From: Pseudomonadota bacterium
Lineage (GTDB): Bacteria; Desulfobacterota; Binatia; Binatales; Binataceae
NCBI GenBank assembly: GCA_021323945.1
Contig: JAJPKA010000002.1
Span: 1-64,000 of the forward strand
Reading direction: 5' to 3'
DNA length: 64,000 nt
In this document: positions 1-24,593 of the stretch, piece by piece
Position numbering within the stretch: the stretch's first letter is position 1
Layout: the number at the start of each line of letters is the position of its first letter
Translations under genes and position numbers: made by a program
Notes under the pieces: generated by a model
The model's input: only the letters and a program-made list of their open reading frames with translations
Databases searched by the model: none
What the model was told of the DNA's origin: nothing

Positions 1-243
1 GCGTAGTCGGTGCCGCTGACGGCGTTGGCAAAGCCGCCCGCCCCGTTGCCCTTGAGCAGCGCGGAACCCGAGGTGGCAGGAGCGTAGTCGGTGCCGCTGA
101 CGGCATTGGCAAAGCCGCCCGCCCCGTTGCCCTTAAGGATTGACGTGCCCGAAGTGGGAGCGGCATAGTCGGTCCCCGGCACGGCATTGGCGCAGCCACC
201 CGACCCGTTGCCCTTGAGGATTGACGTGCCGATGGTATTACAC
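1..243. repeat. 81-bp coding tandem repeat (three copies)
   Basis: The motif GCGTAGTCGGTGCCGCTGAC begins at 1 and again at 82, and a diverged copy (GCATAGTCGGTCCCCGGC) begins at 163, an exact period of 81 bases or 27 codons. The copies encode the LKGNG...GTDYA repeat of the minus-strand fibre-like gene. The array probably continues left of the window. Confidence 0.85.
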
Positions 244-395
244 CCGGTACTTCCCCGTATTTGAACTGGTGAAGTGATACCCGTGCTGGCACCCATAGAC
301 GATTGGGTTTGCGCATGACTGGACAGGCAGGAGAGAAGCAAGCCGACACCACCCAGCAGGAGGCCACTCCCAAGTCCTCGCACCGTGCTCCTCAT
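1..395 (-). CDS. Signal-peptide protein with 27-residue phage tail-fibre-like repeats (3' end outside window)
   Basis: The reading frame starts at an ATG (395-393) about 9 bases after GGAGAG and stays open to the window edge. The first 30 or so residues form a signal peptide: basic start (MRSTVRG), a Gly/Leu-rich core and a SHA-QTQ cleavage-like site. After a short linker it enters repeats of 27 residues with the core LKGNGAGGFANAVSGTDYA. Such LKGNG/GTDYA repeats are common in phage tail fibre and collar proteins, which normally lack a signal peptide. The start overlaps the stop of the upstream Cys-rich gene as ATGA. The likely role is a fibre-like or surface-exposed protein. The C-terminal domain cannot be seen. 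Confidence 0.72.
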   Translation of the reverse strand, partial: MRSTVRGLGSGLLLGGVGLLLSCLSSHAQTQSSMGASTGITSPVQIRGSTGCNTIGTSILKGNGSGGCANAVPGTDYAAPTSGTSILKGNGAGGFANAVSGTDYAPATSGSALLKGNGAGGFANAVSGTDY

Positions 396-544
396 TGCTC
401 GCTTCTCTCCGAATCCGCGTTCTTCCCGCACTGGCGCGGCGCCGCGCCGCGCAGGTCATAAGGCACACAGAGATCGCACCCGCACTGGCCCGCGCCGTCG
501 CACAGCAGATGCGATCCGCGCTCGCACTCCTCGCAAAGCTTCAG
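392..544 (-). CDS. Cys-rich microprotein (zinc-ribbon-like), non-ATG start
   Basis: A 50-residue frame lies exactly between gpD and the fibre-like gene. It contains eight cysteines in the order CEEC, LLCD, QCGCDLC and RQCGK, suggestive of metal binding. Its stop TGA (394-392) overlaps the next ATG as ATGA. At its upstream end a CTG codon (544-542) overlaps the gpD stop as CTGA, and a strong GGAGGTGGAG lies just upstream. No in-frame ATG, GTG or TTG exists. The start must be CTG at 544 or ACG at 553, or the frame is not translated. Mu Com is a zinc-binding phage microprotein of comparable style, but no relationship is claimed. Confidence 0.42.
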   Translation of the reverse strand: MKLCEECERGSHLLCDGAGQCGCDLCVPYDLRGAAPRQCGKNADSERSEQ

Positions 545-1662
545 AGTTTCCGTAACTCCACCTCCGTCGTGTATCCGCTCAGACGGTCGAGCCGATGGCG
601 GCTCGACTCGACATGATAGGTGCCGTCGTAGCTCCCGAAGCCGACCAGCGCCACGTTCACGCCCGCCACCAGCAGCACGTTGCCCTCGGTCTCGATCCGC
701 GCGGTGGTCTCGAGCATGTTGGCGTCATGCAGGGCGCCTTGAGCCTTGAGTTGCGCCTGCTGCGGAGTTTCGCAGCGCGCCACCAGATGCAGATCATCGC
801 CGGTCGGCGACGACGAATCCTGCGCGCTCGCCGCAATGAGCTGCTTCAGCGCCGGATTGAGATAGGCGACGTTCGCCGATCGATAGAGCGCCTGCGTCTT
901 GGTCTGAAACTCGAAGCTTTTGGCGAAGACTCCCTGGCCCGCCACCAGCGGCATCGGCATCGCGTAGCGCGGCTGGTATTCGCCGCCCTGCGCCGAGCCC
1001 CGCGTGATCGTCAGCACCGGCGCGGCCTGCTCCAGTGCCGGACGCGCGTAAAAGACCAGCTGGCTGCCGCGAATCGTGAAATCATAGTTGTGCGCGAGCG
1101 CCAGCCGGCGCAGGAACTGCAGATCGGTCTCGCGCCGCTGGGTGAGCCGCTGCCAGGTCACGTTGACGTCCTGGGGCGCGCCGGTCACGGTCAGCTGATG
1201 GCGCGCCGCGATAGTCTGCGCCACGCCCAGCAGTGTCTGATTCTCGTAGGCCGCGCTGCGCGGCGTGCGCAGCGCCGGCGTGATACCGGCCGCGATGCAC
1301 TTCAAGTGAAAAGTGTCGGGCGGGCCGTGCAACTCGAGCTCGTCCACCTGAAAATTGCCGCAATTGAGCATCCGCTCGTCGCCCTCGTACCCGATCATCA
1401 GGCTCACCGCATCCCCGCGCTGCGGCAGCCACGGCCCCTGCCAGCGGCGATCCCGATCCTCCAGCACCACCTCCAGTTCGTCGGTCTCCGCCGCCGTCAT
1501 CGCCGCCTGCTTGCGCCGGCGATGATGATGGGCGTGATGGTCGCTGTAGGTGATCTCGATTGCCATCGCGGTGATGCGTCCGGTGATGTTCCGGCCGGCA
1601 TAGACCAGCTCCCAGCGCGGATGGCGCACCGGATAGGCGAGCGTGCTCAGCGCCGCCGCCAT
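541..1662 (-). CDS. Late control D-like baseplate hub protein (gpD family)
   Basis: This 373-residue protein resembles the P2 gpD/T4 gp27-like hub of contractile tails. The central part has the family pattern of an LLGVAQTIA segment followed by RETDLQFLRRLALAHNYDF (about residues 165-200) and a YARPALEQ strand. The hub connects the tail tube to the spike and baseplate. It follows the HTH gene with no gap (previous stop 1665-1663, start 1662) and overlaps the Cys-rich frame at its end. A His-rich stretch (SDHHAHHHRRR, about residues 40-50) is unusual. Confidence 0.85.
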   Translation of the reverse strand: MAAALSTLAYPVRHPRWELVYAGRNITGRITAMAIEITYSDHHAHHHRRRKQAAMTAAETDELEVVLEDRDRRWQGPWLPQRGDAVSLMIGYEGDERMLNCGNFQVDELELHGPPDTFHLKCIAAGITPALRTPRSAAYENQTLLGVAQTIAARHQLTVTGAPQDVNVTWQRLTQRRETDLQFLRRLALAHNYDFTIRGSQLVFYARPALEQAAPVLTITRGSAQGGEYQPRYAMPMPLVAGQGVFAKSFEFQTKTQALYRSANVAYLNPALKQLIAASAQDSSSPTGDDLHLVARCETPQQAQLKAQGALHDANMLETTARIETEGNVLLVAGVNVALVGFGSYDGTYHVESSRHRLDRLSGYTTEVELRKL

Positions 1663-1860
1663 TCACTCCCCTCCGCCTCCGCGCCGTTGCGTGTCGGCCT
1701 CGGCCTGCGCGCGCCAGCGGTCGATCAGCTCCGGATCAAACCGCCAGTCCCGGCCGACCTTGAAGGCCGGCAGCTGCCGCTTCTTCAACAGGCGATAGAT
1801 CGTCGTCGTACACGCGCGCAGATGCTGCGCGACCTCGGGCACTGTCATCAATCGCGTCAT
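1663..1860 (-). CDS. Excisionase-family (MerR-like) HTH DNA-binding protein
   Basis: A 65-residue protein consisting of one winged-helix HTH of the HTH_17/excisionase type: MTVPEVAQHL, TTTIYRLLKKRQLPAFKVG and WRFDPELIDRW are its diagnostic parts. Members bind DNA as recombination directionality factors or small regulators. It sits within the tail operon between the small membrane protein and gpD, not next to an integrase, which is unusual. An 8-C run on the plus strand (1865-1872) forms its poly-G ribosome binding site just before the ATG at 1860. Confidence 0.85.
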   Translation of the reverse strand: MTRLMTVPEVAQHLRACTTTIYRLLKKRQLPAFKVGRDWRFDPELIDRWRAQAEADTQRRGGGGE

Positions 1861-1881
1861 TTTGCCCCCCCCTGAAATCGA

Positions 1882-1977
1882 CTATTTCCAGCCGTCGTCG
1901 TCGCCCCGCACCAGAATCCCCAACCCGGCCAGGCCGATCACCAGCACCACCAGCCAGAAAGCAATATCCCCCAGCAT
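1882..1977 (-). CDS. Small single-span membrane protein (31 aa)
   Basis: The ATG at 1977 is one base after the gpX stop (TGA A ATG). It encodes 31 residues: MLGDIAF, a hydrophobic span of about 17 residues rich in Leu/Val/Gly, then a charged tail RGDDDGWK, ending with TAG at 1882. Position and shape fit a phage accessory membrane peptide, perhaps lysis-related. No family was recognised. Confidence 0.6.
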   Translation of the reverse strand: MLGDIAFWLVVLVIGLAGLGILVRGDDDGWK

Positions 1978-1978
1978 T

Positions 1979-2353
1979 TCAGTTCACCTGCTTCCAGGGC
2001 GGCAGATCGGCCGCCTGTTGCACCGTCGGATTCACCGTGAGCAGCGGCACCCCGATCACCAGTCCCGCATCAAACACCGCCATCACCGGGACTTGCGGAT
2101 TGGTCTGAATAATCGGACCGAACAGGGTCGGATCGCCGTAATAGCGCCAGGCCAGCGTGTCCCAGCGCTCACCCGCCGCCGTGATATGCGTGATGAATTG
2201 CCCCGGCATGCGCGCCGGCGTCGGCGGATAGGGCGGCGCGGACGAGGCGGCGGACGACGGCTGAACCGCCGCGCTGCCGGTCAGCAGCTGGTCGATATCG
2301 ACCAGCGCGTCGATATTCGTGACGACGTCCCACGAGGAGAATCCCCCTGCCAT
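1979..2353 (-). CDS. Tail protein X (gpX, LysM-like)
   Basis: A protein of 124 residues whose second half carries the gpX/LysM pattern: GERWDTLAWRYYGDPTLFGPI, then IQTNPQ and LVIGVPLLTV. P2 gpX is a small baseplate/tail completion protein. The N-terminal 55 residues are an Ala/Ser/Pro-rich extension not typical of the roughly 70-residue P2 protein. It lies between a small hypothetical gene and the 31-residue membrane peptide and precedes gpD, the usual tail neighbourhood. Confidence 0.85.
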   Translation of the reverse strand: MAGGFSSWDVVTNIDALVDIDQLLTGSAAVQPSSAASSAPPYPPTPARMPGQFITHITAAGERWDTLAWRYYGDPTLFGPIIQTNPQVPVMAVFDAGLVIGVPLLTVNPTVQQAADLPPWKQVN

Positions 2354-2356
2354 CAG

Positions 2357-2557
2357 TCACTCTCCATGTTCCAAGATCGTCGGCCCGGGATAGGGAATCA
2401 GGCAAAAAACCGCTCGCAGCTCGAACATCCGCACGAGATAGCGCAGCACGGCATTGCGCGCCTCGGCGGCAAAGCCCGGCTTGAAGTAACCTGCACGCTC
2501 GAGCCGCTTGAGCCGGCGCAAATCCTCGTAGTGCGCAATCACTCCACCGAGATCCAT
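2357..2557 (-). CDS. Small phage hypothetical protein
   Basis: 66 residues starting MDLGGVIAHYEDLRRLKRLE. The ATG at 2557 is preferred over one at 2578 because GGGAGG lies 8 bases upstream of it. The N-terminal half is predicted helical and charged; the C-terminal half is hydrophobic (LRAVFCLIPYPGP). No family was recognised. It is placed between the permuted peptidase and gpX in the tail operon, so a tail-assembly role is possible. Confidence 0.6.
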   Translation of the reverse strand: MDLGGVIAHYEDLRRLKRLERAGYFKPGFAAEARNAVLRYLVRMFELRAVFCLIPYPGPTILEHGE

Positions 2558-2582
2558 CCCCCACACCTCCCGGCGCAAATTT

Positions 2583-3131
2583 TCAGTCCGGCGCCGTATT
2601 CAGCTCGCAGCAGATTTCGAGCTTGAGCGGATCGCAGTCGCGAAGATTCACCATCCAGGGCCACCTCTCGCCGGCCGGATAGCGCAGAAAGAGCAGCGCC
2701 GCCTGCGAACAGACGTACGACACCAGGATCGCGTTGCTCGCCTTGAGCCCGACGCAGTGCTCGCACGCCTCCAGCGCGAAACCGAACAAATCCAAAAGCC
2801 CGTAGCCGTCGTGCGCGTAAGTGGCCAGAAAAGCCTTGAGCGCGTTCGTGATCTGTTCGGGCGTCCGCTCGATCCGCCACAGGCGCAGCTCGCAGTTGTC
2901 ATACTCAGAGGCCGGATTCAGCGCCGCGACCGAGTTCTGGTTGAAATTCAGCGCTGATTCGATCACCAGGTCGCGGTCGTGCACGACGAAGGCGTGCGAC
3001 GGGATAAAGTCGCCCTGATAATCGGGATGCAGCCGGCGTTCGAAGTCGACGATCAGGTCGCCCATCAGACTGTGCAGACGCACCAGCCCGATATCGCCCG
3101 CCTGCCGATCCTGCCAGTCAATTGGTTTCAT
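2583..3131 (-). CDS. Permuted papain-like (YiiX/NlpC-P60-type) hydrolase
   Basis: 182 residues. An early GDIGLVR strand, then PSHAFVV (His46) and LVIES (Glu58), and a late YVCSQAALL helix (Cys141) match the order His-acid-Cys seen in circularly permuted NlpC/P60 (YiiX/YaeF-like) amidases. Such enzymes cleave amide or ester bonds, for example in peptidoglycan or lipids. It overlaps the upstream papain-like gene by ATGA. In a tail operon the obvious hypothesis is a tail-borne cell-wall hydrolase. The fold assignment is from motif order only. Confidence 0.58.
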   Translation of the reverse strand: MKPIDWQDRQAGDIGLVRLHSLMGDLIVDFERRLHPDYQGDFIPSHAFVVHDRDLVIESALNFNQNSVAALNPASEYDNCELRLWRIERTPEQITNALKAFLATYAHDGYGLLDLFGFALEACEHCVGLKASNAILVSYVCSQAALLFLRYPAGERWPWMVNLRDCDPLKLEICCELNTAPD

Positions 3132-3850
3132 AGCGCCTTCAGGTCAGCCTCGAGCGTCGCCAGATCGAAACCGTCCGGGTCGCAGTTGGCCGAGTTCTTC
3201 ACCCACGGCAGAAACAGACAGGCATGCGCCTCATCGCAGCGCGCCGCGAACCAGTCCCAGCTCGCCCGCTGCGGCCTGCCCCAGGTGACAACCGTCAGGT
3301 ATTGCGGGTCATACGCCACAACCCAGAGCGCATGGCCGCCCAATGTGTTCGCCATCGAGATGTCCGTCCATGGCTGCCCCGCCTGAAAACAATCCATGTC
3401 GCTCTGCGTGACCAGCACGCCGATATAACAGCCGCCGAACAGCGCGACCGCCTGCCGCACCTGGTCGGGATTGGTCTGGTCGACATCGGCAAAGGCATCG
3501 AGCCGGACGCCCGCCAGGCCCTGCTTGCACATGAACTGCATCGCCGCCAGCTCGGTCCATCCCTGGTCGCTGCCGGGGTCGGCGGGGTTGTAGCCGCTCT
3601 GCTCGTACATCGCCACGATCTCGTCATCACTTGGCGTGATGAGACCGTCGCCATTGGCGGTAATCGTCTGCACCGCATGGCCCATCGCCGCGCAGGTGCA
3701 ATCGCCCAGCACGTCGTTGCGCATCACTCCCCAGTCGGCGGTCATCGCGAGCGTCCAGTCGCAGCTCGGCGGTGGCGGCGGGAGCGCCGTTCCGAGATAG
3801 CGATGAAGCTTCAATTTGGCGCGGGTGGGATGCTTGCGGCCCAGTTTCAT
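3128..3850 (-). CDS. Papain-like cysteine peptidase
   Basis: 240 residues. The motif NDVLGDCTCAAMGHA (Cys51/Cys53, preceded by a GD turn) resembles the papain nucleophile helix. GGHALWVVAYD (His173) and VVTWGRP (189-193) resemble the His and the N/S-W-G elements. The usual Asn before the WG is replaced by Thr, so catalysis is not certain. A basic N-terminus (KLGRKHPTRAKLKLHRY) may bind nucleic acid or the tail lumen. It is followed by a second cysteine-hydrolase gene and preceded by gpU. Confidence 0.65.
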   Translation of the reverse strand: MKLGRKHPTRAKLKLHRYLGTALPPPPPSCDWTLAMTADWGVMRNDVLGDCTCAAMGHAVQTITANGDGLITPSDDEIVAMYEQSGYNPADPGSDQGWTELAAMQFMCKQGLAGVRLDAFADVDQTNPDQVRQAVALFGGCYIGVLVTQSDMDCFQAGQPWTDISMANTLGGHALWVVAYDPQYLTVVTWGRPQRASWDWFAARCDEAHACLFLPWVKNSANCDPDGFDLATLEADLKAL

Positions 3851-3879
3851 GTTGACTTCTTGTTCCCTCCGTTACGCTC

Positions 3880-4557
3880 TCAGCCGGCCCTGACGATCTG
3901 GCCCGGCGCCACGTCGCCCGGATTCCCGGGCGGCTGCAGCACCGGCCCCGGACCGGTCACCGGACTCACTCCCGGCTGTGAATAGGCCGCCGGGCTGTAG
4001 GTTACTCCCGGCCCCGCTCCGGCCGCGCTGAGCTGCAGAATCGCCGAAGTCGGCAGGAGATTGTGCGGGCCAATCGGCTGCGCCGGATTGAACGGCGCGG
4101 CGGCTGCGGCGGCAGGCGCGCTGCTGACGATCCCTGGAGGCGGCGTCGTCCGCCGAGGGGGAGCGGCTGGATCGAAGTCCGCCCCCGGGACCCACTCGCG
4201 CAGGGTGACCCGCGCTGAGATCGCGATGTAACTGCCGTCATCGGCGGTCTGCAGAAAACGCTCCTCGATTCCCTCAATCACGAAGTAACCGCGATGCACC
4301 CCGTTGCCGAAGACCAGGGCGCGCGCCTGATGGTCCTCGGCGGCCGCGCGCAGCTGATTCAGCTGCGTCGCCGGATTGGTGAAGGCAATATGAAAGCTGA
4401 GATCGAGCGAGAGCTTCTGCAGCTCGGTCGCCAGCCACTGCAGCCGCGGCCGCGCCTCGACGACCTTGTGCTCCGCATAGCTGTACTCGCTGCTCGCGCT
4501 CAGCGCCTCCGGCGAGCTCAGCGTTTCAAACAGAATCTCCCCCAGCGTCGCAAACAT
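3880..4557 (-). CDS. Tail protein U (gpU) with long Pro/Ala-rich C-terminus
   Basis: 225 residues. Residues 1-130 fit the P2 gpU family (MFATLGEILFETLSSPEAL start, FHIAFTNPATQL, YFVIEGIEERF, then a REWVPG end). gpU caps the tail at its head-proximal end. The remaining 95 residues are Pro/Ala/Gly-rich (for example APAAAAAAPFNPAQP) and end PGQIVRAG, about 60% longer than the classical protein. It follows a low-G+C gene occupying the place where P2 has gpE and the tape measure. Confidence 0.82.
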   Translation of the reverse strand: MFATLGEILFETLSSPEALSASSEYSYAEHKVVEARPRLQWLATELQKLSLDLSFHIAFTNPATQLNQLRAAAEDHQARALVFGNGVHRGYFVIEGIEERFLQTADDGSYIAISARVTLREWVPGADFDPAAPPRRTTPPPGIVSSAPAAAAAAPFNPAQPIGPHNLLPTSAILQLSAAGAGPGVTYSPAAYSQPGVSPVTGPGPVLQPPGNPGDVAPGQIVRAG

Positions 4558-4625
4558 GTCCGAGAAGAAAAAGTTCGGGAGTTTAGAATTTCTTTCAGTT
4601 GGCGCTTAGTGGGATCGTTGAATGT

Positions 4626-4940
4626 TCAGCGTTGCGGTGAATGCTTTCGCTTCCATTCCAGCAAGCGTCTGCGGACAAACTCCGGGTCCAGGCCGAGACA
4701 CTCGCAAACTTGAGTAAAAGAAAAGAAGGGAGCGTTGCGATACTCGCCGAAAATCCAGAAGTTGGCTTCGCGATGCAAGCGTTCGCGCAACCCCGTTGCA
4801 TACTCATCTCCCATGCTGTGGAAGGGTAAGGCGGCCTGCCAGCATTCGATCGCGTCCATCAGAATTTCTTGCAGCAGCTGCCTTTCCGCTTCGACATTTA
4901 ATTCCTGATCTTGGTTTGAGCGCAGATGCGGCATAGCCAA
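4626..4940 (-). CDS. Host-type hypothetical protein inserted in tail operon
   Basis: 104 residues ending FSFTQVCECLGLDPEFVRRRLLEWKRKH, a C-terminal helix-turn-helix-like signature I associate with a family of small chromosomal proteins in Deltaproteobacteria-like genomes (F-SFxxVCxxLGLDPxxxRRxL). Its function is unknown. Base composition falls clearly here: counted 60-base lines give about 43-57% G+C, against roughly 75-78% in neighbouring structural genes. It lies exactly between tail tube and gpU, where tape measure and its chaperone are expected. Confidence 0.65.
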   Translation of the reverse strand: MAMPHLRSNQDQELNVEAERQLLQEILMDAIECWQAALPFHSMGDEYATGLRERLHREANFWIFGEYRNAPFFSFTQVCECLGLDPEFVRRRLLEWKRKHSPQR

Positions 4941-4969
4941 ATATGCAAGGCGCGTTGGGTCGACCGTTG

Positions 4970-5491
4970 TTACAGTGCTCCGATATTCGCTCTGAAGGTG
5001 GCGAGCTGGTCAACGCCGCCCACCACGTACATGTTGGCGAGCACGTCATAGAGCAGGTACTGCACGCCGGCGACGTAGTATTCGCAATGGTAGACAACCA
5101 GCGTGGTGGGAAAATCGACCTGCTCATGCTGCTTGAAGTTCAACGGACCGCCATCCTTGAACTGCGCGGTCATCAGGCCGACGAAGGGCAGCTCGGCGGT
5201 GCGGCCCTGCGAGGTGTACTGCTCGATCGAGGCCCGGATCTGAAACTGATGCGACTGGAAGATTGAAACCGACTGCAGCACTTCGCTGTAGATCGATGCC
5301 CACTTGACCTTGGCCTCGAGCTTGTCGATCCCGGCGGGAAATTCGGCGGTGCCGAACATTCCCAGCCCCTTGTGGTCGACCATTTTCGCCTTGGGAAAGG
5401 CCAGCTCCACCTCTTCGGCCCGTCCCAGCAGGGAATTGCCGTCCAGATAGATATTGGCGTTGGTCACCCGCGATACGTTCATCAATGCCAT
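4970..5491 (-). CDS. Contractile tail tube protein (gpFII-like)
   Basis: 173 residues with the P2 FII-type pattern: MALMNVSRVTNANIYLDGNSLLGRA start, FPKAKMVDHKGLGMFG, EFPAGIDKLEAKVKW and a C-terminal YYVAGVQYLLYDVLANMYVVGG segment. Hexamers of this protein form the inner tube through which DNA passes. It follows the sheath gene, the standard order in Mu/P2-like tails. Confidence 0.9.
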   Translation of the reverse strand: MALMNVSRVTNANIYLDGNSLLGRAEEVELAFPKAKMVDHKGLGMFGTAEFPAGIDKLEAKVKWASIYSEVLQSVSIFQSHQFQIRASIEQYTSQGRTAELPFVGLMTAQFKDGGPLNFKQHEQVDFPTTLVVYHCEYYVAGVQYLLYDVLANMYVVGGVDQLATFRANIGAL

Positions 5492-5521
5492 CTCGAATCT
5501 CCCATTTTGGTTGTCACCTCA

Positions 5522-7696
5522 TCATCCCGTCGGCAGGGCGGTGGAGGCCGCCGCGCTGGTCGCGCCGGTGAGCTGGGCCAGCAGAGTGGTGTCGATAAAG
5601 ACGTTGAAAGTGAGCCGTTCCGCCGGCGGCGGCGGCATGCAGTCGATATCGAAGACCAGCTGGCCGGCGGCGATCTGCGAGCTCGGATTCTCGGCCGGAT
5701 TGAAGCTCGCCGTCCCCGCCACCAGCGCGCCGCGCGCGATCAGCGTGCGGATAAAGCTGTTGGCGCTCGCCAGGATACTCTGGATCAGCGCGTTCGAGAT
5801 CGGCTGATCCAAAAACTGCATCATGGCCAGCATGATCGACTGTTCAATCACGTCCATCGTGCGGCGCACCGGGATAAACACGTCGGGCGTGCTGTAGGTC
5901 GGAAAGCCCGCGCTGCGATTGCCCCACACCCGAATCCCGGTGCCGAAGGCCTGAAAGGCCGTGACGATGCCCTGCGAGTTGAGCGTGTTGGTGTCGGAGG
6001 CCGCATCCAGAAAGCTCGAATAGATCGCCACATCCGGCCCGAGCGCGCCCACCACCGGCGTATTCGACGGCGACCACCAGTAGCCCTGCGCCAGGTCCTT
6101 CGCCGCCGTGGCGCCGGCCACATAGGGCGAGTAGGGACCGGCATGCGTGACGTTGGCCAGATTCTGAATCGCCTTGCCGCTGCTCGGGTCGATCGACACG
6201 CCGGTCGGCACAATCCCCGAATCCAGAAAGAGCTGCTGCGGTCCGCAGAGAATCGCCCGCTTGTCCGAGGTGTTGAACGCATTGCCGCTCGCGCCGCGAT
6301 TGCTCAGCAGCGTGGCCGGCGACGAACCCGGCGGGCAGTCGATGAAGTACATCGCGCGCATCGCCGCCGCCAGCGTCGCCATCCCGGCCGCCACGGTCGC
6401 ATCCTGCGAGCCCACCACCTGTCCGGTCGGCACCGCATTGCCAAACGACGGCGCAATCAGCAGCTTGGGGAAAAAGCCCATCAGGCCGTAGGCGAGCTTC
6501 CAGTTCTGCATCCCGGTGTAGACGTTGCCGCTCACCGTGCCGACCAGGTCGGAGTCGGCAAGCTTGCTCGGGTCGGCGTAATTGCAGCTCACCTGCACGC
6601 TCTGCCCGGCGGTCAGCAGGCCGCCGCCGAGCGCCGTGATCACGCCGTTGACCCGGTCGACTTTGAAATCCGCCCCCTCGACGTAGATGACGGTCGCGCC
6701 CGTGTTGGTGACCTTGACCGCCGAAAGCCCCATGTGGCCGACGTTGATCGCCTGCACGCCCGCGCCCGGAAAGGTGAAGGTCTGCGCCGTAATCGTGCTG
6801 TAATGCCTGGTCTGGTCGAAGACGTTGACCGCGATCACCTGCCCCGCGCCCTGCGCGAAGACCGTCGCCAGCGCGTACGGAATCGTGAAGCCCTGGATCG
6901 GCGGGCCGAACACTCCGGCCTGCCCCGGCGCCAGCGAGTTCGGATTCGAACCCGCAATCAGCACCGGCTGCTGCAGATTGGGAATCGGCCCCTTCTGCGT
7001 GAGCGTCCAGGTCACGGTGCCGGTCAGGCCGCCCGCAATCGAATCGCTCGTGGTGCCGCCGAGCGTCGTGTTCCAGACCGGCGGCGTCGTGCCGGTAATC
7101 GCCGCCGCGCCCAGCGCCACCAGCGTCCACGTCACGCCGCCGTCAGTCGTGCTGCCGCCGACCGTGGTCGACCAGCTGGGCGCCGACGCGCCCGAGGTCC
7201 CCGCCACCACGCAGCGCTGCGTGTTGCCGCTCGAGTCCAGCACGAGGCTGCCGACGGTGTAGGAATGGGACGCCTGCCAGCCCGGCAGCGTGACCGCGGT
7301 CGCCGTCTGGATATTGCCATTGGCGTCGATACACTGCTGGCCGGCCGCCGCGCCAATCGCGATCAGCGTCCAGACCACCGTGCCGTCGGTGGTGGTCGCT
7401 CCGAGCGCCCGGCCCCAGGCGGGCGTCGAGATGCCGGTTGTGCCGGCGGTCGTCACCTTCTGGGTGTTGCCGTTGCTGTCGACGATCAGATTGCCGACCG
7501 TCTCGACCGTCGACGGCGTCCATTGGGGCGCGGCCTGCACCAGCCACGACGGATCCCACAGCGGCAAAGCCCCCGGCACGGCAAACAGCGGCGCCGAGCC
7601 GACCAGGCCGATCACCGCCGAATTGACCACGTTTATCGGAACCGGCCCGAGATTGAACTCGAAGACCTCGACCCCATGGAGAAAGTTCGCTGGCAT
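5522..7696 (-). CDS. Contractile tail sheath protein (gpFI-like) with inserted binding modules
   Basis: 724 residues, far longer than P2 gpFI (about 396). The N-terminus (HGVEVFEF, SAVIGLVGSAP) and the C-terminal half (SFGNAVPTG, ISNALIQSIL, FDIDCMPPPPAERLTFNVFI) are sheath-like. About residues 56-236 contain repeated W...VGxLxxDSxGNTQ...AGTxG...P.W...TDGxVxWT units resembling CBM5/12-type carbohydrate-binding repeats seen in phage proteins. Residues about 335-375 carry a VEGADFKVDRVNGVITAL module also found in gp37 and the decoration protein. The sheath contracts to drive the tube through the envelope. Confidence 0.9.
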   Translation of the reverse strand: MPANFLHGVEVFEFNLGPVPINVVNSAVIGLVGSAPLFAVPGALPLWDPSWLVQAAPQWTPSTVETVGNLIVDSNGNTQKVTTAGTTGISTPAWGRALGATTTDGTVVWTLIAIGAAAGQQCIDANGNIQTATAVTLPGWQASHSYTVGSLVLDSSGNTQRCVVAGTSGASAPSWSTTVGGSTTDGGVTWTLVALGAAAITGTTPPVWNTTLGGTTSDSIAGGLTGTVTWTLTQKGPIPNLQQPVLIAGSNPNSLAPGQAGVFGPPIQGFTIPYALATVFAQGAGQVIAVNVFDQTRHYSTITAQTFTFPGAGVQAINVGHMGLSAVKVTNTGATVIYVEGADFKVDRVNGVITALGGGLLTAGQSVQVSCNYADPSKLADSDLVGTVSGNVYTGMQNWKLAYGLMGFFPKLLIAPSFGNAVPTGQVVGSQDATVAAGMATLAAAMRAMYFIDCPPGSSPATLLSNRGASGNAFNTSDKRAILCGPQQLFLDSGIVPTGVSIDPSSGKAIQNLANVTHAGPYSPYVAGATAAKDLAQGYWWSPSNTPVVGALGPDVAIYSSFLDAASDTNTLNSQGIVTAFQAFGTGIRVWGNRSAGFPTYSTPDVFIPVRRTMDVIEQSIMLAMMQFLDQPISNALIQSILASANSFIRTLIARGALVAGTASFNPAENPSSQIAAGQLVFDIDCMPPPPAERLTFNVFIDTTLLAQLTGATSAAASTALPTG

Positions 7697-7719
7697 TTCT
7701 CTGTTTCACCGACCTGGCC

Positions 7720-7747
7720 GGAGCCGCCTCCCCTCCCGGGCGGCTCC
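7720..7747 (-). promoter_or_regulatory. Hairpin in the spacer before the sheath gene
   Basis: A perfect 9-bp inverted repeat (GGAGCCGCC, 10-base loop, GGCGGCTCC) lies in the 61-base space between the 62-residue gene and the sheath start. No T-run follows on the minus strand, so a classical terminator is unlikely. RNA processing, stability or translational control is possible. Confidence 0.4.
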
Positions 7748-7757
7748 CGCCAGCCTC

Positions 7758-7946
7758 TCAGTTGCTTGCCTCTTTCACCTCGAGCCAGTCGATCGACGCC
7801 ATCGCCAGGCGCAAGGTCATGTAGCCCTGGCGATTCATCCCCAGCAGATAGCCGTCATCGACCACGCAGTTGTAAAGATTGCGCAGCGTCCGCGTGCTGC
7901 CGTCACGCAGATGCAGTTCGAGCACATAGTCCTTTGCCGGCTCCAT
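7758..7946 (-). CDS. Small phage hypothetical protein
   Basis: 62 residues, MEPAKDYVLELHLRDGSTRTL start and ASIDWLEVKEASN end, predicted all-beta. The ATG overlaps the preceding stop as TGATG, which fixes this start over a longer upstream extension. No family was recognised; it sits just before the sheath gene. Confidence 0.65.
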   Translation of the reverse strand: MEPAKDYVLELHLRDGSTRTLRNLYNCVVDDGYLLGMNRQGYMTLRLAMASIDWLEVKEASN

Positions 7947-8191
7947 CAGTTGCCCCCTCTGGTCGAGACCACATCCACCTCGTAAATGCCGCCCATCAGC
8001 ATGCTGAACGCCGCCGCGACCAGCCGCTTGGTATCCTCGCCGCTGACATTGGCAATCGTGTTGACGGGACAATGCCCGTCGCATTCGTGTCGCGGAATCA
8101 TGAGCAGCGTCCACAGAGTCCCCGCCGGCAGTATCTGCTTGATCAGATGCTGCAGCGTCCGCACTTCCTCGTCGGTCAAAAGTCGCTTCAT
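7946..8191 (-). CDS. Small phage hypothetical protein
   Basis: 81 residues, MKRLLTDEEVRTLQHLIKQILPAG start, then PRHECDGHCPVNTIANVSGEDTKRL and LMGGIYEVDVVS. The HECDGHC cluster could bind a metal. The ribosome binding site is a G-run (AAGGGGGAAAAACG ATG). It overlaps the lysozyme-like gene upstream by ATGA and the next gene by TGATG, so translational coupling is likely. Its function is unknown. Confidence 0.65.
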   Translation of the reverse strand: MKRLLTDEEVRTLQHLIKQILPAGTLWTLLMIPRHECDGHCPVNTIANVSGEDTKRLVAAAFSMLMGGIYEVDVVSTRGGN

Positions 8192-8622
8192 CGTTTTTCC
8201 CCCTTGTCCCCCTTGAGTTGCTGGTAGGCATCGCGCCAGCGCGCCAGATATTCGGGATTCCGCCGCCCTTCGACAAAGACCGCCCGCTCGCCCAGATTCC
8301 AGGCCTGCACGATCAAATCCCGCTCCTCCGGCGACGCCGTGCGCCAGCCCCGCACCGCCAGGTAGGCGGCGCAGGCCTTGATCTGCGCCTGCGTCCAGGT
8401 GTCGCTCACCGTCGCGGCAAAGCGCATCTGCGAGCCGTAGAAGCGCTTGAAGGTCGCCGGATGCATCTGCAGGAGGCCGAAGGACCGGCCGCCATCGCCA
8501 ATCCGGGCCTCGTCCTCATCCGACTCCACCATCGCAAAGGCCCGCACCTCGCGCGCAAACTCGACCGCCGGCGAATAATCAATGCCGGCGCCCGCCCCCT
8601 CAGTCACAGCACGAATGGACAT
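8188..8622 (-). CDS. Lysozyme-like lytic enzyme (probable endolysin/transglycosylase)
   Basis: 144 residues from ATG 8622. FAMVESDEDEAR...GGRSFGLLQMHPATFKRFYG is the lysozyme-fold signature of SLT/goose-type transglycosylases (Glu of the MVES motif as acid, followed by a GLLQ strand-turn), with a C-terminal WTQAQIKACAAYLAVRGW helix. It should cut the peptidoglycan glycan backbone at lysis or injection. An upstream ATG at 8679 is possible but overlaps the zinc-ribbon microgene extensively. The 4-base overlap with the next gene supports operon expression. Confidence 0.72.
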   Translation of the reverse strand: MSIRAVTEGAGAGIDYSPAVEFAREVRAFAMVESDEDEARIGDGGRSFGLLQMHPATFKRFYGSQMRFAATVSDTWTQAQIKACAAYLAVRGWRTASPEERDLIVQAWNLGERAVFVEGRRNPEYLARWRDAYQQLKGDKGEKR

Positions 8623-8695
8623 AGCCGCAGTGCCGACAGAGCCATTTGCCCCCGCTGCCGCGCGCCATCGCCGCGCCACACCAGGGACACCTCAT
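8600..8695 (-). CDS. Zinc-ribbon microprotein (31 aa)
   Basis: The ATG (8695-8693) overlaps the stop of the upstream membrane protein as ATGA. The frame encodes 31 residues with MRCPWCGAAM and WLCRHCGYVHSCCD, a classic CxxC-CxxC zinc ribbon. It ends with TGA at 8600 inside the next gene in another frame. Coupled overlap plus paired CxxC motifs make a real gene likely. The role is unknown; small ribbons often mediate protein or RNA contacts. Confidence 0.62.
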   Translation of the reverse strand: MRCPWCGAAMARGSGGKWLCRHCGYVHSCCD

Positions 8696-8877
8696 GCGCC
8701 GCGCCCGACCCGGCGGCGGCGCAAATCATTGCTGCACAGCACCGTCAGGTCGACCACCGTCGCCCGCCGGCGCGCCTTCTGGCTGCGGCGCCAGCGCCAG
8801 TAGTCGACGCCGAGCCAGCAGAGCCCCACCACGAAACCGCCCATCGCCCCGAACAACAGATCGCCGACGACGCTCAT
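8692..8877 (-). CDS. Small membrane protein, possible lysis accessory
   Basis: 61 residues with one hydrophobic span (about residues 4-25, LLFGAMGGFVVGLCWLGV) followed by a strongly basic cytoplasmic tail (WRWRRSQKARRR). It overlaps the upstream gene by ATGA and the downstream ribbon by ATGA. Proximity to the lysozyme-like gene suggests a holin or spanin-like role, but no family signature is seen. Confidence 0.6.
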   Translation of the reverse strand: MSVVGDLLFGAMGGFVVGLCWLGVDYWRWRRSQKARRRATVVDLTVLCSNDLRRRRVGRGA

Positions 8878-9227
8878 CGCTCACCTCCGGCGGCCAGCGC
8901 CTCGTAGTCGCGCACCAGCGGATCATCAGCCGGCAGCGTCACGCTCTCGCCCGGCACGATCGACGGCCAGCTCACCGCATAGGCCATCCGCCAATGCATC
9001 CCGTCGGGACTGAGCGCCGGCCCGAGATAGATCGCGTCGGCCGCAAGCTGCGTCACCGGATAGCGCCACGCCCTGACCGTCAGCCAGCAGGGCCGGCTGA
9101 GCGCCACCCCCGGCAGCCGATAGAGATCGCGGTCGCGGCTGTAAAGCACCGTCACCAGCCGCCTCGTCGCATTGCGCTCATCGCCGCCCGCGGCGGCTTC
9201 TTTGCCGTTTCCGTTTGACTTAGCCAC
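8874..9227 (-). CDS. Phage hypothetical protein, paralogue of the adjacent gene
   Basis: 117 residues from GTG 9227 with AGGGGGAAAAC upstream. The pattern LYRLPGVALSRPCWLTVRAWRYPV ... PDGMHWRMAYAVSW ... LPADDPLVRDYEAL is shared with the gene just upstream (FYAIPDI..GIWLSLARHPLPV, GRDYWRVGL, IDDELVRDYRDA), so the pair looks like a tandem duplication. No function was recognised. Confidence 0.65.
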   Translation of the reverse strand: MAKSNGNGKEAAAGGDERNATRRLVTVLYSRDRDLYRLPGVALSRPCWLTVRAWRYPVTQLAADAIYLGPALSPDGMHWRMAYAVSWPSIVPGESVTLPADDPLVRDYEALAAGGER

Positions 9228-9612
9228 GTTTTCCCCCTCTGTCCTTTTTGCCCGCTTCGCGGGCCATCTCTTCCATCGCGAGCCGCAGACCCTCCGCCTC
9301 GGCCCACGCCTCCTCGAGTCCCGGCGTCCACCAGCAGGCGTCGCGGTAGTCGCGCACGAGCTCGTCGTCGATGCTCACCGCCCTGCTGCCGTCGGGCCGG
9401 GTCGGCGCATGCAGCCCCACGCGCCAGTAGTCGCGGCCGCGCATCACCACCGCAAAGCTCAGCCCCGGCCGATGCCATTCGCTCGGCACCGGCAGCGGAT
9501 GCCGCGCCAGCGACAGCCAGATTCCGCCCTCCCGCCTGATGTCGGGAATCGCATAGAACTGGCCGCCCGCCGAAAAGACGATCTGCACCTCTTTCATCGC
9601 GCGCTCATTCAC
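9220..9612 (-). CDS. Phage hypothetical protein, paralogue of the adjacent gene
   Basis: 130 residues. N-terminal MKEVQIVFSAGGQFYAIPD, central SFAVVMRGRDYWRVGLHAP and IDDELVRDYRDACWW, and a basic C-terminus (AGKKDRGGKRG). It is similar in layout to the following gene, with which it overlaps by 8 bases. ATG 9612 is used, but ATG 9597 is equally possible. Its function is unknown. Confidence 0.62.
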   Translation of the reverse strand: MNERAMKEVQIVFSAGGQFYAIPDIRREGGIWLSLARHPLPVPSEWHRPGLSFAVVMRGRDYWRVGLHAPTRPDGSRAVSIDDELVRDYRDACWWTPGLEEAWAEAEGLRLAMEEMAREAGKKDRGGKRG

Positions 9613-9656
9613 CGGTCACTCGCGGCCCTCCACCTGCACTCACTGTCAGCCATTCG

Positions 9657-9905
9657 CTATCTAACCGTCACCAGCTCGGGCGGCTGGCGCGCCAGCATCT
9701 CGCCGAGCGCGCTGTGCAGGACCTTGGCGACGTCGAGATTGGGCACCTCCAAAGTCGCCTCGCCGATCACCGCGGGATTTCCGCCCGCCTCCGGCCGCGC
9801 CATCGCATAGGCCTTGTAGCGCCGCCGGCCGTTGGCGAAGTCGTCGCGCATCCACGAGATGCTGAGCAGCGTTCGCGGCGGCGCCCCGTTGACCAGGTTG
9901 TCCAT
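9657..9905 (-). CDS. Small phage hypothetical protein
   Basis: 82 residues, MDNLVNGAPPRTLLSISWMRDDF start, RRRYKAYAMARPEAGG middle, then VLHSALGEMLARQPPELVTVR. ATG 9905 is preferred over GTG 9911 because GAGGGGGG lies 5 bases upstream. It directly follows the gp37-like gene. No family was recognised; a structural or tail-assembly role is only inferred from position. Confidence 0.6.
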   Translation of the reverse strand: MDNLVNGAPPRTLLSISWMRDDFANGRRRYKAYAMARPEAGGNPAVIGEATLEVPNLDVAKVLHSALGEMLARQPPELVTVR

Positions 9906-9920
9906 CGTCACCCCCCTCGT

Positions 9921-10781
9921 TCAGTTGTTCGGCGCCAGCGGCGCCGCGCCGCCACTGGCCAGCGCATTCTCGACATCCGCATACGCGTAGCTCACCGCCA
10001 CCGTCGCGCCGGCCGGAATCGACCCGGTGGCGAGCCGGGTCACCACGCCATTGACGTTGTCGACCGTGTAGTCCACCCCCGCAACGTAGGTCGTCAGCAG
10101 GTCCGCGCTCTTCACCACCACCCCCTGCAGATTCTGATAGGGCAGGGTGATCACCCCCGGCGTGCCGCTGAAGGTCATCAGCGCCACCCCGACCTGCACC
10201 GGCGTCACCCCCCCTTCCTCCATCGCCGTGCCCTTGATGAAGAGCGGGTAGCTGGGTGGCTGATAGTTCTCGACCACCACCGTGCGGGTGGAGAAGATGA
10301 TCTCGTAGACCCAGACACCCCCCTGCCGGTCGCGGTCGACAAACCGCTCGCGCACCGCCTTCATCGGGGTGCAGCCGGTGTTCGGCTGAAAGCCCATGAG
10401 CGCGGTCCGCACCGCCTCGAGGATCTGATAGGCGCCCGGCGAGGTGCCGCTCGGCGGTCCGCCAAAGGCCCACCCCAGATCGCGGATCCGGATTCCCACC
10501 GCGAACTCCAGGGTCCGCTCCTGCGCCACGTGGCCGATATCCAGGATCTCCCCGTAGTCGCCCCCCATGTAGATCACCATCGCAACGCCGATCCGATGGC
10601 GCATCTCGTAGGCCTCGGGCTTGTCGGGAAAATGCGTCACCTCGATCATCTGCGTCCCCAGCGCCGCCCCGAGATAGCTCTCGAGCTGCGCCACGATCGC
10701 CGCTTCGATCGTCGCGATATCGACCGGCGTCGGCGGGCTGAAGTTCTGCCCGGTCCAGGGACTGTCGAGAAAGACCCCCAT
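9921..10781 (-). CDS. Mu gp37-like head-tail protein with extra C-terminal module
   Basis: 286 residues. The N-terminal 170 residues resemble the DUF1834/gp37 family (ATIEAAIVAQLESYLG, YEMRHRIGVAMVIYMG, YQILEAVRTALMGFQP). Residues about 205-270 form a separate module (TYVAGVDYTVDNVNGVVTRL, IPAGATVAVSYAYAD) that recurs in the sheath and decoration proteins. gp37 sits after gp36 in Mu-like genomes, as here, and is implicated in head-tail joining. Confidence 0.75.
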   Translation of the reverse strand: MGVFLDSPWTGQNFSPPTPVDIATIEAAIVAQLESYLGAALGTQMIEVTHFPDKPEAYEMRHRIGVAMVIYMGGDYGEILDIGHVAQERTLEFAVGIRIRDLGWAFGGPPSGTSPGAYQILEAVRTALMGFQPNTGCTPMKAVRERFVDRDRQGGVWVYEIIFSTRTVVVENYQPPSYPLFIKGTAMEEGGVTPVQVGVALMTFSGTPGVITLPYQNLQGVVVKSADLLTTYVAGVDYTVDNVNGVVTRLATGSIPAGATVAVSYAYADVENALASGGAAPLAPNN

Positions 10782-10789
10782 TCAGCCGC

Positions 10790-11131
10790 TCAGAAACCGT
10801 CGCTCCCGTCCTCCAGCGCCCCCGACAGCACCGGATCGCCATGGATCATCGGCCCGTCGCAGCTTCCGGCCGCTTCAGTCTCAGCCGCTTCGCCCGCGGC
10901 CGGCTCGCTCGCGCAATTCTCGGCCTCGTCTTCGACCTGATGGGTCATTTCGCGCATCGCATCGACCATCGCGCGCAGCTGCTCGCGCTCGGCCTTCATC
11001 CAGGTGAGCACCCCCTTCATCTGCCCCACCAGCGACTTGATCTCCGCCCAGCTCGGCTGCGCGGGCGCCGGCTTCTTCGCCGCCGGCCGCTTCATTGCCT
11101 TCTTTGCCGGCTTCTTTTTGCTGCTTCCCAT
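10790..11131 (-). CDS. Lys-rich coiled-coil phage protein
   Basis: 113 residues. A Lys/Ala/Pro-rich basic N-terminus (GSSKKKPAKKAMKRPAAKK) is followed by a heptad-like segment (IKSLVGQMKGVLTWMKAEREQLRAMVDAM is helical) and an acidic tail. The ribosome binding site is GGGGGGGAGG. The basic start could bind DNA. It lies between gp36 and gp37 and no family was recognised. Confidence 0.6.
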   Translation of the reverse strand: MGSSKKKPAKKAMKRPAAKKPAPAQPSWAEIKSLVGQMKGVLTWMKAEREQLRAMVDAMREMTHQVEDEAENCASEPAAGEAAETEAAGSCDGPMIHGDPVLSGALEDGSDGF

Positions 11132-11147
11132 CTGCTTCCTCCCCCCC

Positions 11148-11609
11148 TTAGAATCCCTTCAACGTCCCGCGGCTGAACACGCGCTGCGGCAGCGCCGGAT
11201 CGCCGCCAAAGTTCTGATCCATCACCACCTGCGGCGACGACGGATCGGCCGGCTCCTCGCTGTCGCTGCTGAGCCCGAGCGTCCGCTTGCCGTCGCTCAC
11301 TTCCTTCAGAAAGGCAATCGCCTTCTCGTACTTGTCCTTCGCATCCACCAGGTCATGAATCGGCCGGAGCGCGTTCAAATGGTACATCGCGATCTCGCAG
11401 CAGAGCCGCGTCAGAATCGCCGGCGGATCGCTCAGCGGCAGCGCAAACCGCGCCTCCAGATAGGCATCGATCTCATCCGAGGCATCCGCCAGAAACGTGC
11501 TCAGAAAGGCCGCGTTGATCGTCGTCTGCGTCGGATCCTCGTTGGTCAGCTGCACCAAATCCCGATTGGGATAGCGCGCCTGCATGTCACTGACCTGCGC
11601 GTACGCCAT
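11148..11609 (-). CDS. Mu gp36-like protein (DUF1320), head completion
   Basis: 153 residues with the gp36 pattern: MAYAQVSDMQARYPNRDLVQLTN start, ADASDEIDAYLEARFALPL and ILTRLCCEIAMYHL. DUF1320 proteins are head-tail connector/adaptor components of Mu-like phages and lie between capsid and gp37 genes, as here. An acidic linker precedes a basic, aromatic C-terminus. Confidence 0.85.
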   Translation of the reverse strand: MAYAQVSDMQARYPNRDLVQLTNEDPTQTTINAAFLSTFLADASDEIDAYLEARFALPLSDPPAILTRLCCEIAMYHLNALRPIHDLVDAKDKYEKAIAFLKEVSDGKRTLGLSSDSEEPADPSSPQVVMDQNFGGDPALPQRVFSRGTLKGF

Positions 11610-11621
11610 CTCCGGCTCCCC

Positions 11622-11852
11622 TCAGTCCTCCTCGAGCTCCCGCTTTGTGCTCCGTCGCCGCCGCCGCCCGCCCGCTCCGAACGTGCAGTCGAAGCAGCGG
11701 CCATCGTCGCCGATGTACTCGGAGTCCACTCCCGTCGCCGACCAATGCTGCGTGACGATCGACCTGCCACAGCCCGGACATCGAAATCGCACGATCATGT
11801 GCTCGCGGTCATCGAGCGCGAGCCCGAGCTGCGCCCCCCTGTCTCCAGCCAT
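11622..11852 (-). CDS. Zinc-ribbon phage protein
   Basis: 76 residues. RFRCPGCGRSIVTQHW and GDDGRCFDCTFG give a CxxC...CxxC zinc site; the C-terminus is very basic (GGRRRRRSTKRELEED). ATG 11852 follows a G-run ribosome binding site, and an upstream ATG (11894) is less likely. It lies between the capsid and gp36 genes. Nucleic-acid binding is plausible but not shown. Confidence 0.65.
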   Translation of the reverse strand: MAGDRGAQLGLALDDREHMIVRFRCPGCGRSIVTQHWSATGVDSEYIGDDGRCFDCTFGAGGRRRRRSTKRELEED

Positions 11853-11881
11853 TTGCCCCCCTGACGCGCCTGGCCGCGCCC

Positions 11882-12868
11882 TTACGCCAGCCACTCGCTG
11901 ACGATCAGCGTCGCATCGTTCAGATAGATGTTCGCGATCGGAATCGCGCTTACCGCGCCGCCGATCGTGCCCGCGCCGAAGGTCGCATGCAGGAGCTGAC
12001 GCGCCACCTCTTCAAGCTGCGGCGGCACGATCAGAAAACGCGTGCTCGGCGGCCCGTTCCAGGTGCCAAACGGCACCCCGGCGTCGCTCTTGATGCTGCG
12101 CAGCGCCGCCACCGCCGCCGCATAGTTGCTCGGATTGGACAGGTCGGTGTTGGAGGCATAGGTCAGCTGCCAGAGCCCCACCCCGGCATTGCAGCGCACG
12201 TCCACGCCATAGCGAAACAGCCGCTGCGAAAAGACCGCTTCGTCGGTCGCCGTGTTCATCCGGGTCACGGCATACTCGCGCCGCTTCTGGAAGATAAAGG
12301 GCTTGATCGGCCGCGCCGCATCCACCAGAAACCAGAAGGGCCCGCTGCCGCTCGAATTGATATTCGAATAGGTCGTCTGGTTGCTCGATTCCTGGGCGGG
12401 GCCCGCCGGATGGTTCGGGGCGTACAGATTTAGCCCGTCATAACAGATCGGCACCGGCACCGTCAGCTTGCCGATCTGCACCGGCGCGCCGGTCACCGCC
12501 GCCTTCATCATCCCAAAGACCAGCTGATCAGGATGCGTCTTGGCGTCCCAGCCGAGCTGCTCGATCACCGGCGCATAAACCCCGTACTGGTCATCCTCGA
12601 TCCGCTCCCGCTCAATCCCCACCGTGTCCTCGAAGGTCTTGTTGACAATCGTGTAGGCATGGGCCTCGAGCGCCTGCAGCACCCGCTCGCCGATCCATTC
12701 ACGAAAGCCGGTGGTGCGGCCGAGCCAGGGATAGATCGTCTGGCTGGTCGACGACGGGACAATCGAACAGATCTTCTCGTAGTACGAAGGGGCCATCTCG
12801 AACCCCTTCTGGAAGATCGTGTCGAAACCCGTAAACAGCGTGGTGAGATTGTTCGCAGAGATCTCCAT
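11882..12868 (-). CDS. Mu gpT-like major capsid protein
   Basis: 328 residues with the gpT family start (MEISANNLTTLFTGFDTIFQKGFE) and further signatures YPWLGRTTGFREWIGERVLQ, DTVGIERERIEDDQYGVYAP and LYAPNHP. This is the HK97-fold major head subunit of Mu-like phages, with typical length. It follows the protease and decoration genes, the usual head cassette. Confidence 0.92.
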   Translation of the reverse strand: MEISANNLTTLFTGFDTIFQKGFEMAPSYYEKICSIVPSSTSQTIYPWLGRTTGFREWIGERVLQALEAHAYTIVNKTFEDTVGIERERIEDDQYGVYAPVIEQLGWDAKTHPDQLVFGMMKAAVTGAPVQIGKLTVPVPICYDGLNLYAPNHPAGPAQESSNQTTYSNINSSGSGPFWFLVDAARPIKPFIFQKRREYAVTRMNTATDEAVFSQRLFRYGVDVRCNAGVGLWQLTYASNTDLSNPSNYAAAVAALRSIKSDAGVPFGTWNGPPSTRFLIVPPQLEEVARQLLHATFGAGTIGGAVSAIPIANIYLNDATLIVSEWLA

Positions 12869-12883
12869 CGTCCTCTTCTTCCC

Positions 12884-13069
12884 TCACTTCTGCGTCGGAC
12901 TCGGCATCAGCAGATGCGCCACCGCCACCAGCATCGCGATAATCGCCGTCGCCATGTCGCGCCACTCCGCCGGCAGAGCCTGCACGAACTGCGGCGCGAC
13001 CGTCACAAAGGCGCCGCCCAGCACGGTCGCGTAATGCCAGGCGCGCATGCTCCACAAACGCGTCATCAT
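12884..13069 (-). CDS. Small two-span membrane protein (holin-like)
   Basis: 61 residues with two hydrophobic segments (WHYATVLGGAFVTVAPQFV and MATAIIAMLVAVAHLLM) separated by PAEWRD and flanked by charged ends. Size and topology fit a class II holin, but its place between decoration and capsid genes is not a lysis cassette, so another membrane role is possible. The ATG immediately follows the previous stop. Confidence 0.6.
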   Translation of the reverse strand: MMTRLWSMRAWHYATVLGGAFVTVAPQFVQALPAEWRDMATAIIAMLVAVAHLLMPSPTQK

Positions 13070-13810: not shown

Positions 13811-13811
13811 T

Positions 13812-16169: not shown

Positions 16170-16261
16170 TAACTGTTAGCTCTCTCCTGGCTGTGATCTT
16201 AACCGGTTGACGTTCAATGTCTACAGCTTTTTTCACAGCCTTCAGCAGGCGACAAAGAAGT

Positions 16262-20423: not shown

Positions 20424-20444
20424 AGGGTTCAATTGCGCACCAAC

Positions 20445-24581: not shown

Positions 24582-24593
24582 CGCCGGGCTGAC

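Follow-up and report, generated by a model that had tools for sequence, protein, structure and literature searches.

Contractile tails of the P2/Mu type are encoded in the usual order sheath, tube, chaperone, tape measure, gpU, gpX and gpD, together with V, J and I. In the bacterial DNA studied here, the tube gene is followed by a single small gene and then by gpU. This raises the question of what became of the chaperone and the tape measure, the protein that sets tail length, and of what the small gene is doing in their place. We analyzed a stretch of 64,000 nucleotides (the window), which is the left end of contig C11 in a Binataceae assembly of 22 contigs; two further contigs of this source genome, C7 and C4, are cited below. 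Other genomes or IMG/VR records are given G numbers, G001 being the genome of a sister species within the same genus, and loci are given L numbers.

The tail cluster and its tube-gpU slot

Pfam and PHROG matches delimited a cluster of Mu/P2-type structural genes on the minus strand of bases 1 to 16834. The order along the cluster was repressor-like gene, head maturation protease, structural protein, major head protein, head-tail adaptor, Gp37-like gene, transglycosylase-like gene, sheath, tube, the 104-amino-acid (104-aa) gene, gpU, two genes without a clear role, gpX, a gpD-like gene and finally a fibre-like gene, which is cut off at the left end of the window. Host genes start ca. 18.1 kb into the window. 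The features, from left to right, were as follows.

1-431, minus strand: beginning of a gene that resembles a fibre gene and contains 81-bp repeats, running off the left end (repeats and position)
541-1662, minus strand: gpD-like tail protein (phrog_52, E = 5.6e-80; Pfam Phage_GPD, E = 0.0059, below the cut-off)
1979-2353, minus strand: gpX-like tail/baseplate hub protein (Pfam Phage_tail_X, E = 1.9e-8; phrog_46, E = 2.2e-14)
2583-3850, minus strand: pair of genes with no clear role that separate gpU from gpX, of 240 aa (3128-3850; phrog_19005, E = 3.2e-30) and 182 aa (2583-3131; phrog_1128, E = 1.5e-5)
3880-4557, minus strand: gpU-like tail protein (Pfam Phage_P2_GpU, E = 2.2e-27)
4626-4940, minus strand: 104-aa gene of a multicopy host chromosomal family, resident in the tube-gpU slot (ORF search, family searches and G+C)
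4970-5491, minus strand: tail tube, FII (Pfam Phage_tube, E = 5.7e-36)
5522-7696, minus strand: tail sheath (Pfam Phage_sheath_1, E = 1.7e-11; phrog_23, E = 1.8e-79)
8188-8679, minus strand: transglycosylase-like gene (phrog_21776, E = 3.8e-4; Pfam SLT, E = 0.027)
9921-10781, minus strand: Gp37-like protein (Pfam Gp37, E = 5.2e-26)
11148-11609, minus strand: head-tail adaptor (phrog_195, E = 5.3e-41)
11882-12868, minus strand: major head protein (phrog_371, E = 2.6e-90)
13070-13810, minus strand: virion structural protein (phrog_1731, E = 5.9e-15)
13812-15443, minus strand: head maturation protease (phrog_328, E = 5.4e-66)
16262-16834, minus strand: repressor-like helix-turn-helix protein (Pfam HTH_3, E = 5.2e-8; phrog_4, E = 1.6e-11)
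17576-18079, plus strand: late-activator-like (Mor-type) regulator (phrog_836, E = 7.4e-19; Pfam Mor, E = 7.2e-5, below the cut-off), with a 64% identical partner in G001
18142-32824: host genes; G001 has collinear ones next to its copy of the cluster (comparison with G001)

Read by eye, a 65-aa protein encoded at 1663 to 1860 on the minus strand, overlapping the start of the gpD-like gene, resembles an excisionase-type helix-turn-helix protein.

Positions 4558 to 4969 are exactly the gap between gpU and the tube. The sole minus-strand ORF of at least 80 aa lying wholly within this gap is the 104-aa one (4940 to 4626), which has a TTG start and contains the motif quoted in an earlier note on this DNA, LGLDPEFVRRRL; a 107-aa minus-strand ORF (4804 to 5127) partly overlaps it and extends into the tube gene. 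No chaperone, tape measure or other large gene was present among the ORFs of the slot, so the slot holds the 104-aa gene alone, just as the earlier note had reported in seeing no large tape-measure gene between tube and gpU. That note had also put the G+C of the gene at 43 to 57% in counted lines, much below its neighbours, and the seven 60-base lines do range from 0.43 to 0.58. The 104-aa gene itself (G+C, 0.537; GC3, 0.619) is below the phage average, the means for the 18 other phage genes of the window being 0.655 and 0.836, respectively. The 412-bp interval as a whole had a G+C of 0.522, and equally low 412-bp windows made up 1.7% of those within bases 1 to 17000 and 6.2% of those across the 64 kb, where the interval is less extreme because the host part (18.2 to 64 kb) has a G+C of only 0.558. 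Thus, the G+C of the 104-aa gene is low for the phage genes and normal for the host.

A tape measure on contig C7

The earlier note had proposed searching to the left for a helical gene of more than 600 residues, and a tape-measure gene of that size was found on another contig. With the G001 tape measure as the query (a protein that itself had no tape-measure match in Pfam), the source genome gave a single match, 29% identical, at C7:49175-51184. The gene encodes 671 residues and matches PhageMin_Tail (E = 1e-17) and phrog_28, tail length tape measure protein (E = 1.4e-46). The gene order on C7 is fibres, V, J, a chaperone-like gene, the tape measure, I, H and portal, followed by genes read as host; V, J, I and the portal, which is of the Mu type, were identified by Pfam. 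The chaperone-like protein had no Pfam match and matched only a PHROG of unknown function, and we call it a chaperone by its position, its profile similarity and the subthreshold match of a relative to Phage_TAC_7 (E = 0.0049).

C7 ends in exactly the 104 bases with which the window begins, in the same orientation, and they lie within the 81-bp repeat of the fibre-like gene. Given this overlap, the tape measure would occupy about -14970 to -12958 in window coordinates (C7 position minus 64142), so that 17.9 kb would separate its start from the tube and ca. 13.0 kb from the first base of the window; both distances are minima, because a repeat may have been collapsed. The overlap alone leaves room for another join, because its 104 bases fall in a tandem repeat. 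However, homologues of the C7 and C11 halves are joined, in the same order, within each of two IMG/VR records, G057 (39 kb) and G151 (37 kb), which provides independent support for the halves belonging together. In addition, one IMG/VR contig matched C7 without a difference along 17,976 bases that span the tape measure, although it may share the sample of the source genome; it is the only IMG/VR contig with the order J, chaperone, tape measure, I.

Alternatively, C7 and C11 might carry parts of separate prophages, of which that in the window would be dead, having lost its tape measure. Such a reading could appeal to the join, which consists of a 104-base identity inside a repeat only, and to G057 and G151, where both halves are present and neither a search with the source tape measure nor the profiles detected a tape measure. 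In both records, however, the sequence stops precisely with the stop codon of the portal gene, as expected of trimmed proviruses, and the gene may therefore be missing only through trimming. The halves are also complementary, and searches of the source genome returned one match each for gpU, portal, tape measure and terminase. As for a dead prophage, among the 14 window genes compared with G001, dN/dS was between 0.07 and 0.25 in 11 and reached 0.32 in the adaptor, the two others (p117 and the 104-aa gene) being saturated; most genes of the element are under purifying selection. We regard two separate prophages as very unlikely.

Taken together, these data support a tape measure that was relocated to between J and I rather than lost, as the earlier note had suggested among other readings; deletion was rejected for the source element by the match on C7. 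Given the C7-C11 join, we consider it probable that the window holds one half of a Mu/P2-type tail cluster, whose chaperone and tape measure left the slot, a chaperone-like gene and a tape measure now being encoded ca. 18 kb downstream. From its new place, the tape-measure gene would still be producing the protein that sets tail length.

Slots of relatives and the origin of the displaced pair

The earlier note had called for a comparison of synteny with relatives. Iterative searches that started from proteins of the window and of C7 gave profiles, with which the fetched loci were scored. Nine loci were left out of the count (eight repeats of others and the source-genome locus L001), the duplicates L056/L076, L060/L077, L072/L263 and L080/L262 were kept, and L175/L176 look like one element. 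Both tube and gpU were found around 119 slots, most of which showed the usual P2/Mu order, and 107 had a chaperone-profile match. Chaperone and tape-measure profiles only were matched in 66, and the same two together with an RNA-recognition-motif (RRM) gene in 26. Eight slots (six distinct) had a chaperone and an RRM gene only, five (two of which look like one element) had chaperone, tape measure and a gene of the 104-aa family, which adjoins gpU, and two had a chaperone and a 104-family gene. The 12 others, including the source slot, held a 104-family gene alone, and the slot type of the source is therefore an unusual one. It should be kept in mind that a match to the tape-measure profile is not always a full tape measure; in compact elements, the proteins are short (327 to 424 aa) and rich in Arg and Ser, with mainly the C-terminal end of a tape measure recognizable.

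Other placements of these genes were also seen. J and I were both present in 51 loci, in one of which, a copy of the source element, chaperone and tape measure lay between them. With the source tape measure as the query, matches were obtained in 3 of 22 IMG/VR records. In L118, a G001-type chaperone (L118:8913-9858; 77% identical) is found downstream of an ORF of 983 aa that was read as a spike, and the contig stops soon afterwards, before any tape measure could appear. In a second element of G033 (L291, G033:C39:66403-74407), the terminase is preceded by a gene that matches the tape-measure profiles (E = 3.7e-8 and 0.057) and is separated from the portal by a chaperone.

The survey yielded some side observations. 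An RRM gene lies between the chaperone and the tape-measure position in 34 of the 119 slots (e.g., in loci among L065-L080 and L122-L165), many of them in compact elements of the Binataceae type; the example at L073:8756-9076 matched Pfam RRM_1 with an E value of 2.4e-18. A homologue of the 182-aa gene of the window is found between V and J in G057, and one of the 240-aa gene between capsid and adaptor in G151. The P2 chaperones E and E' are made by frameshift, and the arrangement at L086:8370-8825 (minus strand) looks alike, in that a second frame after the chaperone-like ORF continues, by eye, with a similar-looking extension.

Regarding the occupant of the slot, the description as a host-type gene in the earlier note agrees with its composition and with its distribution. 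Members of the 104-aa family were found in all 57 genomes searched, the source included. The source genome has five further copies, two of them weak (E of about 1e-4), at C22, C14 and C11:248.9 kb (L002-L006); their G+C is 0.536 to 0.587, and they sit among differing genes, with surroundings that share nothing. A chromosomal member used as the query gave matches in 6 of 59 genomes sampled from the phylum (source included), 3 of them of the host class. By sequence comparison, the 104-aa protein belongs to a multicopy chromosomal family of the host class. The chromosomal members are proteins of ca. 140 aa with no Pfam or NCBIfam name, found throughout the class sample and rare outside it, and they may be helix-turn-helix proteins.

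Profile searches, which the earlier note had suggested for this protein, returned no useful family. It had no Pfam or NCBIfam match at E values up to 1, its best (and only) PHROG match had an E value of 0.14, and among 18 family members searched the best PHROG match (E = 0.0012) and the best Pfam helix-turn-helix match (E = 0.08) were each found in one member. The only match among annotated phage records (E = 7) was in two records of one phage, and the best match in a PDB sequence search had an E value of 0.34. Consequently, a family name for the protein was rejected on the Pfam, NCBIfam, PHROG and PDB searches. A structure prediction of moderate confidence (pLDDT, 79.7; pTM, 0.64) was all helical, and of its four helices the last two (75-82 and 86-100) are spaced as in a helix-turn-helix. 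With this model, Foldseek gave nothing at an E value of ≤0.001 (best, 2.3), and a second structural aligner gave Z scores up to 6.0, mostly to chains of bacterial 30S subunits and other helical proteins, which may reflect a common arrangement only. The protein is most likely a small DNA-binding regulator of host origin, judging by its sequence and the model, although neither a known fold nor a known family backs this reading at a useful significance. In the family tree, which bears on a single origin of the phage copies, 18 phage members fell on one side of a branch and 25 members taken as chromosomal on the other, with weak support (45/26); L124, an IMG/VR locus, was assigned to the chromosomal set by judgement.

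Could the 104-aa protein have taken over a role in the tail, as a chaperone or a short tape measure, and owe its place in the slot to it? A gene of this family is present in each of the 12 slots that lack chaperone and tape measure, and the predicted structure is all helical. However, five loci have the gene beside a chaperone and a tape measure, its chromosomal paralogs sit in unrelated surroundings, and a tape measure of normal size is present on C7, so that we find such a role highly doubtful. Replacement of the tape measure by this gene, one of the readings of the earlier note, does not hold, because sister elements have it between the tape measure and gpU. That note had also named two findings that would speak against its reading of the slot, a tape measure to the left and a close homologue of the 104-residue protein in the same slot of intact phages; the tape measure does lie to the left, and phage homologues, from relatives that may or may not be intact phages, do occupy the same slot. 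Comparison of the loci indicates that the gene is an older passenger of the element family and no substitute for the tape measure. It would already have been in the slot and would have stayed when the chaperone and tape measure left.

Whether the pair was moved or exchanged can be approached through its divergence. The identity between source and G001 was 28.7% for the tape measure and 34.3% for the chaperone, compared with 88% for the capsid, 85% for the tube, 77% for the sheath and 69% for gpD. Even the lowest values among the 14 shared window genes (range, 42 to 88%) were 42% for p117, 47% for the 104-aa gene and 48% for the protease (aligned part). Given that the tape measures are only ca. 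29% identical, loss of the native pair and gain of a divergent one is favoured, and we consider it the likeliest route. Alternatively, the native chaperone and tape measure could have been moved by recombination and then diverged fast, with no foreign module involved. The chaperone tree groups G001, L118 and L175 (99/98) with the source apart, but a single clade of these four was not rejected (p-AU, 0.345), and the G001-type chaperone downstream of the spike-like ORF in L118 indicates that such a move seems to have occurred elsewhere. Against it, the divergence of the pair far exceeds that of tube and capsid, and the source chaperone is closer to that of one compact, family-wide element (46.6% identity). 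We therefore judge a move of the native pair to be rather unlikely.

Host setting and comparison with known systems

To the right of the element, the host genes follow the same order as those next to the G001 cluster, with 18 matching pairs, on one side only, the other side lying outside the G001 assembly. The distal half is not in that assembly either, because the sole match of the source J (E = 3.8e-8) falls in the G001 sheath gene. The lone terminase match of the source genome is at C4:4439-5965 (L288; Terminase_6N, E = 4.4e-7; phrog_2, E = 4.8e-37), and its neighbours, read by eye, are trpS, endonuclease IV, flavin reductase and alcohol dehydrogenase. The G001 homologue (C304:5511-7040; L289) is flanked by these genes too, except that a further gene separates the terminase from endonuclease IV, and dN/dS between the two terminases was 0.109. 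Synonymous divergence was 1.1 to 2.0 in the 12 computable window genes, while out of 11 host genes, 6 had values of 1.8 to 2.5 and 5 were saturated; the lower dS of the cluster could reflect a later arrival or only a stronger codon bias. Flanks are also shared between two species in three other genera (G002/G017, G015/G026 and G020/G033). Thus, although a single species pair was compared in detail, the element looks domesticated and inherited with the chromosome, not newly acquired.

An ordinary temperate phage or prophage with an odd gene order, not domesticated, is a real possibility, if somewhat less than an even one. Repressor-like and Mor-like genes flank the cluster, and many relatives appear in IMG/VR as viral contigs. 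A relative of gpU was found in 28 of 148 genomes of the class (source included), one match in 27 and two in one, all in a single family of which at least 13 genomes have none, and the gpU of G001 is disrupted after residue 150, which counts against domestication. On the other hand, the same host neighbours, on the assembled side, are found in a second species at near-saturated synonymous divergence, the terminase stands alone among shared host genes in both genomes, and no integrase, transposase or replication gene was noticed in the cluster among the ORFs read or searched. For a domesticated element, a role like that of a gene transfer agent would be plausible. With nearly even confidence, we tentatively propose that the Binataceae carry an ancient domesticated contractile particle of the Mu type, which would be an undescribed type of gene transfer agent with scattered genes (a lone terminase, a portal at the far end and an exchanged and moved tape measure) and a host regulator in its tail operon. 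The separate chromosomal place of the terminase, seen in two species, may have relaxed the pressure on gene order.

These findings matter in two respects. The displaced pair, with the remaining tail set kept, makes the importance of operon position for tail length testable, because the pair has moved here while 107 of the 119 slots have a chaperone-profile match. The lone terminase and the host neighbours that both species have in common suggest a domesticated particle in the phylum Binatota. Among the literature matches listed, no title dealt with displaced tape measures or with phages or gene transfer agents of Binatota, and those on Binataceae, Binatia and gene transfer agents included no earlier account.

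Compared with P2/Mu contractile tails, the source element shares homologous sheath, tube, gpU, gpX, gpD-like protein (by PHROG only), V, J, I and tape measure, as well as a Mu-type portal, head protease and head protein. Unlike them, it encodes the chaperone and tape measure after J and before I, has a host-family gene in the tube-gpU slot, and carries the portal at the far end of the cluster and the terminase elsewhere. The compact elements of other Binataceae genomes share a homologous head-tail set, but their terminase adjoins the portal (in the three inspected), and their slot keeps a chaperone, in most cases an RRM gene, and either a short protein whose end resembles that of a tape measure or no such protein. 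Gene transfer agents, according to a review (PMC11841831), are encoded at several loci, have packaging and structural genes without replication genes and are inherited vertically. The source element resembles them in having a head-tail cluster with genes at more than one chromosomal place (terminase on C4, cluster on C11/C7, with the same split in G001) and, in the one species pair, signs of vertical inheritance. The tail of RcGTA is siphovirus-like, whereas the source element, known from its genes, has a contractile tail set of the Mu/P2 type.
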